DNA of 64,000 nucleotides. Source: Chloroflexota bacterium (GTDB lineage: Bacteria > Chloroflexota > Anaerolineae > Anaerolineales > Anaerolineaceae). The notes under the pieces were generated by a model. It saw only the letters and a list, made by a program, of their open reading frames with translations, was not told the origin of the DNA and searched no databases. Every line of letters begins with the position of its first letter. The stretch's first letter is position 1. The DNA lies in assembly GCA_004347695.1 (NCBI GenBank), contig SLTK01000007.1:226823-290822 (forward strand). The letters are read 5' to 3'. The position numbers and the translations under genes are program-made. Of this stretch, positions 10,979-16,224 are shown in pieces.

Positions 10979-11057
10979 TACCAAAATCGAAGGATTTAAG
11001 TGCAAGAAATATTGAGTGGGGTTTTCTTCGATTGCGGTTAAGGGGATAGGGGGCAAT

Positions 11058-13124
11058 TTGAATATCAAGGTTAGAGGTAAAAACCGTATTTTTAGTACGA
11101 TGCTAACCATACTGGCTGTTACAACCAGTCTGTTGACATTCTCGCGTCCTGCTCGTGCCGGAAATATTCGGGTTCCGGAGGATTATCCCACCATCCAGGC
11201 GGCCATTAATGCAGCCGTCACTGGGGATGTGGTCATTGTCTCCCCGGGAACATACAACGAAAACCTGGTGATTGCAGGAAAAACCATTACTCTGACATCT
11301 CTTTATTACACAACCGGCGACCGGCAGTACATCGACAGCACCATTATCAACGGACGATTGTTAGGCCCTGTTATTCAAGTCAGCAGCTCCGTTGGTCCTG
11401 AAACGACCATTCAGGGATTAACGATTTATAACGGGTTAGACGGAATTAGTGCTTTTACAAAATTAAACATACTCGATAACCGTTTCAACGCGAACGACGA
11501 TGGCATCGACTTCAGCGACAGTGGTGGGTTGGTACGCGGCAATATCTTCGAGAATGGCACCGATGACGGTGTGGATTTTGATATGAAGTCCGAGGCTATC
11601 GTTGAAAACAATATAATGCGGAATAACCATGAGGATGGAATCGAAATCCGTTTCCAGGACTATGTTGGCCCAACCCTCAATATCACTATTCGTAACAATC
11701 AACTTATTGGCAACGGGCAAAATGGTATCCAACTTATTGGGTATCCTGCCACCAGCAATCGGGTCATCAACATCGAACATAACCTGATCAAGGACAATTC
11801 GCGGGTTGGCGTCGGACTGATGGATAATGCCCAGAGCGGTGAAGATTACCGGGCTGCCAGCCTTCTTGAACGAATTAATGTGATCAACAATACTTTTTCC
11901 GGGAATAAATATGCGATAACAGGCGGGGACAACCTGGTAGCGGTGAACAATATTTTTACGGGTTCGACGACCATGGGGATAAAAAACATTGACGGCAATT
12001 CTGTTGTCTCACACAACCTCTTTTGGAACAACGGGACTGATCATTCTGGCAGCAATGTCGATTTATCGTCTTCTTTATTCGCCAACCCTCTGCTGGATCT
12101 GGATTTTGGCTTGCAGTATGGCAGCCCGGCAATCGACGCGGGTACAGCCCAATTCATCTTTCAGGGAAGCACCATATTCGATTATTTACCAAGTACCTAT
12201 TTCGGGACAGCTCCCGATCTGGGATGGCTTGAAAGTAATTTTCTCAACGAGCCAACAGCCATCCACACGCCTACCATCCCGCCAACATCAACCCCCAGGC
12301 CCGGCGATACTTTTACTTTTGCTCCGCTGGACGATGCAACAGTTAACAATTTCTCCCCAGGAACGAATTACGCCTCAGATGCCCTGCTAATTGTTGATAA
12401 TTCTCCGATTGAACATTTCCTGATTAAATTCCAGGTAGATGGACTGAATGGGCTTGAAATTACCCAAGCCACCTTGAATCTGTACGTAAACAACGAATCG
12501 ACCAGGGGAGGTGACTTTTATCTGGTACTGGATAATTTCTGGGCTGAAGAAACAATAAATTGGTATAACGCTCCAATCGCGGACTCAACCCTGGTGGCTT
12601 CGCTCGATACTGTTGCAATTAACAATTGGGTTTCCATTGATTTAACCTCGCTAATCACGGATGACGGACTGTATTCCCTGCGGGTATCTTCTACCACTAC
12701 CGACGCCGCTAAGTACTCTTCAAAGGAAGGAGAGTTTCCACCGTTCCTTGAGATCATTGCGGCCAGTCCGCCAGCCACGACCCCGGATCTACGAACCCCG
12801 ACCGACACAACGACGACCACGCCAACTACTACACAGATAATTCCACCCACCGTCACATTTACAAATACAGTCACGGCGACTCCGACCTTAACCAATACAT
12901 TTACACCAACAGCCACAGTAACAAAAGTGTTTACTCCTACTCCGACCTTCACTGAAACTTTTACTCCCACTCCTACTGAGACTGAAACGATCACACCTGC
13001 ATTAACCGCCTCAAGAACCGTTACATCAACGGCCACGGTTACAAAAACCATTACACTGGCCGTGACATCTACTCCCATCCGAGAAGAGTATTTTTATTTC
13101 CTCCCGTGCATCTTTTCTTATTGA
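11058..13124 (+). CDS. secreted right-handed beta-helix protein with DNRLRE-like domain and Thr/Pro stalk
   Basis: About 688 aa. The frame opens at GTG 11016, but TTG 11058 lies behind AGGGGG (4-nt spacing) and directly gives a basic n-region and signal peptide ending RPARA-G. Next is IRVPEDYPTIQAAINAAVTGDVVIVSPGTYNEN, split over two strands, the standard opening of parallel beta-helix (pectate-lyase/NosD-like) proteins, followed by many NN-rich turns to about residue 400. Residues of about 430-580 (FAPLDDATVNNFSPGTNYASD, FLIKFQVDGL, WYNAPIADSTLVAS) match DNRLRE/CBM96-type carbohydrate-binding domains. The last 110 residues are a Thr/Pro-rich repeat stalk and a hydrophobic FLPCIFSY end, typical of cell-surface proteins of Anaerolineae. 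Likely polysaccharide binding or breakdown; no catalytic residues assigned. Confidence 0.8.
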   Translation: MNIKVRGKNRIFSTMLTILAVTTSLLTFSRPARAGNIRVPEDYPTIQAAINAAVTGDVVIVSPGTYNENLVIAGKTITLTSLYYTTGDRQYIDSTIINGRLLGPVIQVSSSVGPETTIQGLTIYNGLDGISAFTKLNILDNRFNANDDGIDFSDSGGLVRGNIFENGTDDGVDFDMKSEAIVENNIMRNNHEDGIEIRFQDYVGPTLNITIRNNQLIGNGQNGIQLIGYPATSNRVINIEHNLIKDNSRVGVGLMDNAQSGEDYRAASLLERINVINNTFSGNKYAITGGDNLVAVNNIFTGSTTMGIKNIDGNSVVSHNLFWNNGTDHSGSNVDLSSSLFANPLLDLDFGLQYGSPAIDAGTAQFIFQGSTIFDYLPSTYFGTAPDLGWLESNFLNEPTAIHTPTIPPTSTPRPGDTFTFAPLDDATVNNFSPGTNYASDALLIVDNSPIEHFLIKFQVDGLNGLEITQATLNLYVNNESTRGGDFYLVLDNFWAEETINWYNAPIADSTLVASLDTVAINNWVSIDLTSLITDDGLYSLRVSSTTTDAAKYSSKEGEFPPFLEIIAASPPATTPDLRTPTDTTTTTPTTTQIIPPTVTFTNTVTATPTLTNTFTPTATVTKVFTPTPTFTETFTPTPTETETITPALTASRTVTSTATVTKTITLAVTSTPIREEYFYFLPCIFSY

Positions 13125-13203: not shown

Positions 13204-13231
13204 TTGACAAACCTTTTATTCAGTCTATAAT
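13204..13231 (+). promoter_or_regulatory. consensus sigma70-type promoter of the cysK-cysE unit
   Basis: TTGACA at 13204-13209, 16-nt spacer, TATAAT at 13226-13231; both hexamers perfect. Predicted start near 13238 gives a leader of about 240 nt before cysK. Confidence 0.85.
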
Positions 13232-13275
13232 CAGGCAATATTATGAGATTTATGATAAATATTGAGGCTTTTGAT

Positions 13276-13326
13276 ATGCAACATTGCATGTGTCTGAGGC
13301 GGGGTTTGCAAGCACCGCTGCCTTAG
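13276..13326 (+). CDS. putative cysteine-rich leader peptide of cysK
   Basis: A 16-codon frame, MQHCMCLRRGLQAPLP, starts at ATG 13276 with GAGG at 13264-13267 (8-nt spacing). Codons 4-6 are Cys-Met-Cys (TGC ATG TGT), the sulfur amino acids made by the pathway encoded downstream. The frame is open further up to ATG 13243, but that lies within a few nt of the predicted transcription start without a ribosome site. The stop TAG at 13324-13326 sits inside the second arm of the hairpin 13292-13328. This arrangement matches leader peptides of amino-acid attenuators; the role is inferred. Confidence 0.6.
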   Translation: MQHCMCLRRGLQAPLP

Positions 13327-13423
13327 ACTGAACCGATAAATTTATCGTCAGCCAGCAGACTCAGGCAGTGGACTGCAGCCCCGCAGGAATTTTGGTTTTG
13401 CGCGGCAGCCGTCCGCTGTTTTT
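13292..13423 (+). promoter_or_regulatory. candidate transcription attenuator of cysK-cysE
   Basis: Four segments can pair in competing ways. Segment 1 (13292-13300) pairs with segment 2 (13320-13328), 9 pairs with one G-U. Segment 2 (13318-13330) pairs with segment 3 (13356-13368), 11 of 13 pairs. Segment 3 end (13366-13373, CAGTGGAC) pairs with segment 4 (13411-13418, GTCCGCTG), 8 pairs with one G-U, followed by five T (13419-13423), i.e. a terminator. Segment 1 begins at the Cys codons of the leader peptide. Energies were not computed. Confidence 0.55.
13334..13347. repeat. 14-bp perfect palindrome in the cysK leader
   Basis: CGATAAATTTATCG reads identically on both strands. It lies in the loop between attenuator segments 2 and 3; it could be a protein-binding site or simply fold as a local stem. 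Confidence 0.4.
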
Positions 13424-13475
13424 AATTCTGCTGGCTATTGTTTTAATCACACTTTTTACTTTTGAGGAGTCATGA

Positions 13476-14408
13476 ATGAAAATCGCCAATAACGTCACCG
13501 ATCTGATCGGCAATACCCCGCTCGTCCGCCTTAACCGTATCACGGACGGGGCCGTAGCCCAGGTTGTCGCCAAACTGGAATTCTATAACCCGGCCCACTC
13601 GGTCAAAGACCGCATTGGCGCTGCCATGCTGGATGCAGCCGAGCGCGAAGGCAGGATCAACAAAGACACGATCATCCTGGAACCGACAAGCGGCAATACC
13701 GGCATTGCCCTGGCATTCGTGGCGGCTGCCCGCGGTTATAAAGCCACCATGGTCATGCCTGAATCGGCCAGTAAAGAACGGCGCATCCTCATGCGCGCCT
13801 ACGGCGCCGACTTGATTTTGACGCCAGCCAGCGAGGGAATGGCCGGAGCCATCCGTAAAACAGAAGAATTGGCTGCCAGCGACTCGCGCTACTTCATTCC
13901 GCAGCAGTTCCAAAACCCCGCCAACCCTGAAATCCACCGGCGCACAACTGCCGAGGAAATTTGGAACGACACGGACGGAAAAGTGGATATTTTGGTGGCC
14001 GGCGTTGGTACGGGTGGTACGATCACCGGGGTTGGCGAGGCAATCAAAGCCCGCAAGCCGTCCTTCCGCGTGGTGGCCGTCGAACCGGATGCATCCGCAG
14101 TGCTTTCGGGTGAACCGAAGGCCTCGCACCCGATTCAAGGTATTGGCGCGGGTTTCATCCCCGATGTGTTGAATACCAAAATTTACGATGAAATCGTCCG
14201 GGTCAAAAACGAAGACGCCTTCCGCACCGCCCGCGATTCAGCGGCTCGTGAAGGTTTGCTGGTCGGCATTTCTTCAGGCGCAGCCATCTGGGCGGCAATT
14301 CAGGTCGCCAAACGCCCGGAAAACGCGGGCAAGTTGATTGTAGTCATCATCCCATCCTTCGGCGAACGCTACTTGAGCACCGCCTTATACGCCGATCTGG
14401 TTGACTGA
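13476..14408 (+). CDS. cysK: O-acetylserine sulfhydrylase (cysteine synthase A)
   Basis: PLP enzyme that makes cysteine from O-acetylserine and sulfide. The PLP lysine is Lys44 in the [11 protein letters not shown] block; [15 protein letters not shown] binds the substrate carboxylate; [13 protein letters not shown] is the phosphate-binding loop; SSGAA sits near the end. At 310 aa it has CysK length and the motif set of the O-acetylserine-specific enzymes. Start ATG 13476 has GAGGAG with 6-nt spacing. It is followed after 54 nt by cysE, which supplies its substrate and normally forms the cysteine synthase complex with it. The 240-nt leader carries a candidate cysteine attenuator. Confidence 0.96.
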
Positions 14409-15234: not shown

Positions 15235-16224
15235 CTAGGATTTTTTCCGCAGCGAAGACAGCACCACCATTAACAGGCCGATGCCGCTGATGGCGATAAT
15301 GCCTACTCCCAGCGTATTCCGCCCGGCCCAATCTGGCGGAGTCCAGTTGAATAGCGGGCGCGGCGTTGCGGTGGGTGTGAGCGTGACGGTCGGTGTAACG
15401 GTCGAGGTGCGCGGCGTGGGTGTCGGTGTTGGCGTGCGGGTCGGCGGGCGAGGCGTCAGGGTGACTGTCGGTGAGACCGTTGGTGTAAATGCCTGGCGCA
15501 CGATGAGTTTCTGGCCGATTGACAGCACCGGATTTGCAGGAAGTTGATTCAAAGAGATCAAATCGACGATTTTAACGCCGTAAGCAATGGCGATGCTCCA
15601 CAACGCCTGTCCGGGCTGCACCTCGTGCACGATCGACCCGTCATCTCCCGGCGTGGCCGTGATGACCGGTTTCACAACGCCGCTGGTGGCTATAGGCTGG
15701 CTCGACCCTGAAGTTGTAGGAGCAACCGGCGCAGAGCTATACGAGCCGCCTGAAACATAAGCAGCATGAATAACATAAAAGACCCGCCCATCGACCACGG
15801 TCACTCCGCCGCCAATATGGGTGTATTTCGGGTCGGTCATGGGCATCATGTGGGTGGCATCCGCCCAATACTGATAGACGACGTCCTCGACCGTCATGGT
15901 GATGCCGCAGGCAATATTTTCAGTGGCAAAGACCGTCGCTCCGCCGCCGTACCCGGCTGCGGCGATGCGTCCACTCGCATTGCCAATGTGGGAACAACTG
16001 CCGTTGGCAGCCATCACATCCGAGGATGCCTGGGCAGTTCCCATCAAAATGCCGTCGATTTCGAGAGCCGGAAGCCCGTTGGATGTGCGCACGGCATTCA
16101 CGGCTGCCACCAGGTCATAGGCAGTACCGCCCTGTGCCCGCACGGCTGGGGGCGCCGGAAGAACAGCCAGACCAATAATCACCATTGTCAAGATCAAGCG
16201 GGAAATTAATAATAAAAGGCGCAT
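15235..16224 (-). CDS. secreted CAP/SCP-domain protein with LysM and Thr/Pro stalk
   Basis: About 329 aa. ATG 16224 opens directly into a signal peptide ending VRAQ. Residues of about 35-160 are a CAP (SCP/PR-1, YkwD-like) domain: LVAAVNAVRTSNGLPAL, a CSHIG element, and YWADATHMMPMTDPKYTHIGGG. A LysM domain (VQPGQALWSIAIAYGV ... LISLNQLPANPVLSIGQKLIV) suggests peptidoglycan or glycan binding. A Thr/Pro repeat follows, then a C-terminal TM helix with basic KK end, so the protein is membrane-anchored outside the cell. The -10 TATAAT ends only 7 nt before the ATG, implying a leaderless transcript. Confidence 0.85.
   Translation of the reverse strand: MRLLLLISRLILTMVIIGLAVLPAPPAVRAQGGTAYDLVAAVNAVRTSNGLPALEIDGILMGTAQASSDVMAANGSCSHIGNASGRIAAAGYGGGATVFATENIACGITMTVEDVVYQYWADATHMMPMTDPKYTHIGGGVTVVDGRVFYVIHAAYVSGGSYSSAPVAPTTSGSSQPIATSGVVKPVITATPGDDGSIVHEVQPGQALWSIAIAYGVKIVDLISLNQLPANPVLSIGQKLIVRQAFTPTVSPTVTLTPRPPTRTPTPTPTPRTSTVTPTVTLTPTATPRPLFNWTPPDWAGRNTLGVGIIAISGIGLLMVVLSSLRKKS

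Follow-up and report, generated by a model that had tools for sequence, protein, structure and literature searches.

A candidate cysteine-responsive transcription attenuator in the leaders of sulfur genes of Anaerolineae (Chloroflexota)

The leader preceding cysK-cysE in an Anaerolineaceae genome very probably functions as a ribosome-mediated transcription attenuator that reads the supply of cysteinyl-tRNA. The features by which such attenuators are recognized were found in it, namely a short Cys-containing leader ORF, mutually exclusive helices, a terminator predicted ahead of the first gene, the expected behavior when the RNA was folded with a ribosome masking part of it, and genes of sulfur or cysteine metabolism behind every inspected copy. 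The attenuator reading put forward by an initial annotation of this DNA was thus supported.

Sequences and Methods

The window is the whole stretch of DNA that was analyzed, 64,000 nt from a Chloroflexota bacterium of the Anaerolineaceae (GCA_004347695.1, contig SLTK01000007.1, 226,823–290,822, forward strand). Relatives of cysK were gathered by a DNA search (60 related genomes) and by peptide patterns (named genomes), and 99 distinct leaders of Anaerolineae were used as the comparison set. A covariance model of the element core was built from cysK leaders only and then used to search whole genomes. Of its 72 best matches (E up to 0.0015), a few of which were training sequences, 70 were inspected. 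Short patterns of the conserved block showed poor specificity in GC-rich genomes, and RNAalifold applied to the plain alignment retained only the core of the segment 1:3b helix. Helices were compared with shuffled sequence in 30 leaders found via cysK homology alone, without the covariance model, and their partners were swapped among 59 diverged leaders. All findings on the leader ORF, on how well it is conserved, and on the competing helices, terminator and target genes are computational.

Results

Architecture of the leader

The features upstream of cysK-cysE are collected in Table 1. The promoter that the initial annotation called perfect agrees with the consensus throughout, and the 16-codon ORF, its GAGG 8 nt before the ATG, the Cys-Met-Cys at codons 4–6 and the five T that follow the hairpin were all read in the sequence as that annotation described them. 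GGAG or GAGG occupies the same site in most leaders with short N-termini. Along the RNA, segment 1 is followed by segment 2 (after or across the stop codon), one outer arm, segment 3, segment 3b, segment 4 with its T-tract, and the other outer arm. The outer arm pair, which is of the GCCAACTGG/CCAGTTGGC type in relatives, surrounds the terminator hairpin. Of the four pairing segments claimed earlier, the 1:2, 2:3 and 3:4 pairings were supported, but in segment 1 the conserved core lies at 13297–13304 instead of 13292–13300, and segment 3b together with its pairing to segment 1 had been overlooked. The stop codon does lie inside segment 2 in the window, as was stated; this is a trait of the genus, and most relatives stop before segment 2. 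The reading frame at 11016–13124, which ends 80 nt before the promoter and lies outside the operon, encodes a large repeat protein that looks secreted and whose tail is rich in Thr and Pro.

Table 1. Features of the region upstream of and including cysK-cysE (positions in the window).
Feature	Position	Strand	Basis or remark
Promoter TTGACA-16-TATAAT	13204–13231	+	12/12 consensus positions
Shine-Dalgarno-like GAGG of leader ORF	13264–13267	+	Direct reading; 8 nt before ATG at 13276
Leader ORF, 16 codons, MQHCMCLRRGLQAPLP, stop TAG (13324–13326)	13276–13326	+	In-frame ATG in 99/99 relatives' leaders
Regulatory codons TGC ATG TGT (Cys-Met-Cys), codons 4–6	13285–13293	+	First codon TGC 93/TGT 6; second TGT 99/99
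Segment 1, AGGCGGGG, within Arg-Arg-Gly codons	13297–13304	+	Strongest conservation past the Cys codons; partner is segment 2 or 3b
Segment 2, CCGCTGCCTTAGACTG	13315–13330	+	Partner is segment 1 or segment 3
5' outer arm of terminator, AGCCAGCAGA	13350–13359	+	Perfect inverted repeat with 13427–13436
Segment 3, CAGACTCAGGCAGTGGAC	13356–13373	+	Antiterminator with segment 2, terminator with segment 4; both beat shuffled and swapped controls
Segment 3b, AGCCCCGC	13377–13384	+	Complementary to segment 1; 97% of cells paired in 29 leaders
Segment 4, GTCCGCTGT, and T-tract, 3' side of predicted intrinsic terminator	13411–13423	+	Terminator scan; TTTTT at 13419–13423
3' outer arm TCTGCTGGCT, then ATTGTTTTA	13427–13445	+	Inverted repeat with 13350–13359
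cysK, cysteine synthase, 310 aa	13476–14408	+	Pfam PALP, E 1.3e-72
cysE-type serine acetyltransferase, 254 aa	14463–15227	+	Pfam Hexapep and SATase_N; 54 nt behind cysK

Conservation of the leader ORF

Relatives of the same genus in which a match was obtained all keep the leader upstream of cysK, as do most Anaerolineae loci. The initial annotation had proposed that the Cys codons and hairpins be sought in relatives, and both proved to be kept across genera and families. All 99 leaders contain the two Cys codons (TGC-NNN-TGT pattern), the Arg-Gly segment and a stop codon. While an ATG precedes the Cys codons in their own frame in every leader, it was found in none for frame +1 and in 14 for frame +2; nearly all leaders of a frame-blind motif search likewise had an in-frame ATG. 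The stop is placed 8 codons past the first Cys in 72/99 leaders and 7–9 codons past it in 88/99, which in most leaders is six codons beyond the second Cys. The N-termini are variable (1 to 17 codons), and so are the peptides of other genera, such as MLTCMCLRRG, MFTCICRRRGS, MTHCICTRRGH and MKLNCLCKRRGTI, in which C-x-C and R-G are constant. A short C-x-C ORF was detected in 44 of 55 Chloroflexota cysK upstream regions versus 6 of 50 from other phyla, and the control doublets S-x-S, A-x-A and H-x-H gave a far smaller difference between Chloroflexota and the others.

In 37/99 leaders a TATAAT is found no more than 70 nt from the start of the uORF, compared with 6.9% of shuffles. One class of leaders is leaderless, with TATAAT 6–10 nt before the ATG, 9–16 codons before the first Cys and no Shine-Dalgarno sequence (L010, L027, L034, L202, L205, L169 and L023); the other bears a Shine-Dalgarno sequence and usually has 3 codons ahead of the first Cys. 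Since leaders belong to either class, promoter position and start codon agree with each other. The leader ORF is hence real, and its translation is predicted from these sequence features. At codon +4 the first base varies (AGG, GGG, CGG, TGG) and the last two are GG in most leaders, and the third base of the Gly codon is free (T28 C25 A20 G19), so that the pairing of segment 1, a constraint at the RNA level, accounts for the Arg and Gly codons.

Some cysK leaders of Chloroflexota are diverged, with C-x-C or C-x-C-x-C in the peptide but a GGCGGGG block that is weaker or absent (L011, L013, L015, L022, L043, L072, L078 and L096); those with C-x-C-x-C peptides are L015, L043 and L078. Most of them score low or nil with the covariance model, which indicates that the family is wider than counted here. 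Three metagenome assemblies titled Herpetosiphon sp. or proteobacterium (L037, L042, L047) contain a cysK 75–79% identical to that of the window, and their titles may be wrong; L037 also has an Anaerolineae-type leader.

Choice of Cys codons

Every leader of the comparison set, and 36/36 of the frame-blind set, has TGT as its second Cys codon. TGC is the usual codon in the long ORFs of the window (TGC:TGT = 51:13). Coding by itself does not account for this constancy of the third bases (TGC, then TGT). The leading edge of a ribosome lies approximately 13 nt past the first base of its A-site codon. A stall at the second Cys would therefore set this edge just over segment 1, and a slow codon at that position would sharpen the switch.

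Helices and the switch

Folding of RNA 13238–13480, which the initial annotation had suggested, gave −93.8 kcal/mol (z = −7.5), a value equaled by none of 200 shuffles. Each of the S1:S2, S2:S3, S1:S3b and S3:S4 helices (S, segment) was supported. In 29 leaders, S1:S3b and S2:S3 together showed 87% of cells paired versus 45–60% when the alignment was slid, and the conserved CCCCGC block of segment 3b is the partner of segment 1. For S1:S2, 81% of cells were paired, with covariation no greater than in shuffles. The mean number of pairs in the 30 leaders was 10.3 for S2:S3 (2.0 in shuffled downstream sequence), 6.5 for S1:S3b (0.45 shuffled) and 12.8 for S3:S4 (4.2 shuffled). Swapping partners among the 59 diverged leaders weakened the helices, with z = −11.0 for S2:S3, −11.3 for S3:S4, −8.2 for S1:S3b and −6.7 for S1:S2, kinship being reduced and not removed in these control tests. 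Only 57/92 leaders have four or more T among the 9 nt that follow the hairpin; the minority without a clear T-tract suggests that some leaders may act via the outer hairpin or via translation.

The initial annotation had expected a stalled ribosome to favor the 2:3 helix, and folding with a ribosome mask reproduced this switch in RNA that ends just past segment 3b. S2:S3 formed in 97/98 leaders with the first Cys codon in the A site, in 98/98 with the second, and in 5/98 with the stop codon there. With the ribosome at the stop, segment 3 formed 12.9 pairs with downstream RNA. When the RNA was grown with no ribosome, S1:S2 appeared first and was followed by S2:S3 and S1:S3b once segment 3b was out. 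Antitermination is thus favored at that point also without a ribosome, unlike trp. S1:S3b would help a ribosome stalled at the first Cys, and perhaps a lack of translation as well, to antiterminate. In equilibrium folding the terminator wins after segment 4 is complete, wherever the ribosome sits, which indicates that kinetics must decide the outcome, as they do in known attenuators.

Regulon and phylogenetic range

The covariance model matched 79 of 396 Anaerolineae genomes. A 400-genome draw across the phylum yielded matches in Anaerolineae only, apart from one weak match (G615), which was rejected as apparent protein-coding sequence with no leader. A minus-strand match at 15660–15763 of the window (22 bits) lies within a coding region and was attributed to chance. 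Those cysK loci of named Actinobacteria and Betaproteobacteria that were searched with this model gave no match.

Both the uORF and downstream sulfur genes were present at all 70 inspected matches. These genes comprised 48 PALP cysteine synthase/CBS-type enzymes, 10 rhodaneses (thiosulfate sulfurtransferase; five then followed by SufE), 4 O-acetylhomoserine (OAH) sulfhydrylases, 4 DUF4395 proteins (three then followed by a cysteine synthase), 3 nitrite/sulfite reductases (NIR_SIR) and 1 sulfur transporter (Sulf_transp). As training had used cysK leaders alone, the assignment of these genes serves as an independent test. The source genome itself (G000) contains a diverged second copy at C3:64785–64890 (L180:486–591), with the leader MGHCICHRREL and a PALP enzyme with CBS domains as the next gene; it was missed by a DNA search of this genome and recovered by the covariance model. 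Neither the class-wide regulon nor the second copy was noticed in the initial annotation.

Discussion

In the cell, we infer, stalling, termination and read-through would take the following course. RNA polymerase would start near 13238, with a ribosome following on the leader ORF. When cysteine is plentiful, the ribosome would pass TGC ATG TGT, reach the stop codon and cover segments 1 and 2; segment 3 would then pair with segment 4, and transcription would end at approximately 13420. When Cys-tRNA is scarce, the ribosome would stall at a Cys codon. At the second of these its leading edge would cover segment 1 and leave segment 2 free to pair with segment 3, so that the terminator would be pre-empted, cysK-cysE transcribed and cysteine made. 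The little-studied Anaerolineae probably tune their sulfur use in this manner, by sensing ribosomes that are short of cysteine.

Two other readings ascribe the conserved core to something other than stalling for want of Cys-tRNA. It is very unlikely that the element is a riboswitch binding cysteine, O-acetylserine or S-adenosylmethionine, with the conserved TGCnnnTGTnnnnGGCGGGG block as its aptamer and the short ORF incidental. The overall structure is strong, and constraint at the nucleotide level, such as the invariant TGT and the nearly constant G as third base of the codon before CGG, would suit an aptamer. Such a reading, however, leaves the in-frame ATG unaccounted for in leaders of so variable an N-terminus, together with the near-fixed in-frame stop and start sites that fit either a Shine-Dalgarno sequence or a leaderless promoter. 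The unpaired triplets that separate and follow the Cys codons are moreover free to vary, and no Rfam family, T-boxes included, matched at gathering score (only sub-threshold antisense matches, E 0.9–2). An arrest peptide, in which the nascent chain, in response to free cysteine or a related metabolite, would halt the ribosome near the end of the ORF, is scarcely credible. The C-x-C-x-x-R-G core is conserved as it might be in such a peptide, but no residues other than C, C, R and G are fixed, the residues after G and the entire N-terminus vary, and the number of Cys differs among relatives. R and G are, furthermore, accounted for by the pairing of segment 1.

The Cys leader could alternatively act by occluding a ribosome-binding site or through Rho, its hairpins then governing translation or the access of Rho and not serving as an intrinsic terminator. 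Cys leaders of actinobacteria lack terminators and have been discussed as Rho-dependent (PMC1262725) or, in mycobacteria, as translational attenuators (PMC13236596), and a minority of the present leaders has no obvious T-tract. We consider this very unlikely here, as the hairpin of segments 3 and 4 recurs with TTTT tails, and the Shine-Dalgarno sequence and start of cysK in the window (13464–13478) lie approximately 28 nt beyond the outer hairpin, outside the switch of segments 1–4.

If transcription attenuation by the cysteine-sensing ribosome is true, it constitutes a class-wide regulon in Chloroflexota whose cysteine-response genes can be predicted from sequence alone. Its predicted members include some that are not normally filed under cysteine synthesis, namely thiosulfate sulfurtransferase-SufE, DUF4395 and a sulfur transporter. 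The fixed order of TGC then TGT also raises a testable question, how codon identity tunes attenuators. A more far-reaching version, which we regard as tentative and rather doubtful, is that the logic differs from that of trp: the order of TGC and the rare, wobble-read TGT would set the stall at the second Cys with the ribosome edge just over segment 1, and the 1:3b helix would make antitermination the default unless the ribosome finishes the ORF, so that failed translation would also turn the sulfur genes on. The element would then be the ancestral control of this class-wide sulfur regulon.

Comparison with known systems

The trp, his and leu attenuators of Proteobacteria share with the present element a promoter, a leader ORF that includes codons of the amino acid being made, 1:2, 2:3 and 3:4 helices that exclude one another, a T-tract terminator and cognate biosynthesis genes downstream. 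The element differs from them in that it senses cysteine through no more than two codons, which are not adjacent, in that segment 1 has a further partner, segment 3b, which lengthens the antiterminator, and in that the leader ORF is leaderless in some relatives. The antitermination logic is shared with the cysteine T-boxes of Firmicutes, in which uncharged tRNA-Cys turns on cys genes. Unlike the element here, T-boxes bind the tRNA directly and have no leader ORF.

Cys leader peptides of Actinobacteria are reportedly the subject of work by Canestrari et al. in 2020, which we know through citations. Poly-Cys leaders before actinobacterial sulfur genes, to which the initial annotation correctly referred, contain runs of Cys codons and have no terminators (Seliverstov et al. 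2005, PMC1262725); those of mycobacteria were described as translational attenuators (PMC13236596). Like the present leaders, they place Cys codons in a short ORF that precedes cys/cbs operons, and leaderless starts occur among them. Their Cys runs, however, lie near the stop and have no conserved terminator hairpins, whereas here C-x-C is placed six codons before the stop and the terminator is conserved, so that the element does not belong among the poly-Cys leaders. Another related system is uORFC-8-2, a candidate cysteine attenuator of cysS in Rhodobacterales with uORF Cys codons and an intrinsic terminator (Brewer et al. 2021, PMC8632094). It has tandem Cys codons at positions 14–15 with UGC dominant and occurs only upstream of cysS in Alphaproteobacteria (PMC8632094). 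Its description sets it apart from the present element, in which C-x-C is encoded by TGC then TGT before sulfur-assimilation genes of Anaerolineae. With the actinobacterial Cys leaders and the terminator-bearing cysS candidate published, the kind of element is already known. A literature search found no amino-acid attenuator, of the Cys type or other, described for Chloroflexota. As far as this literature shows, the phylum, the genes, the sequence family and the extension of the antiterminator by S1:S3b are new.
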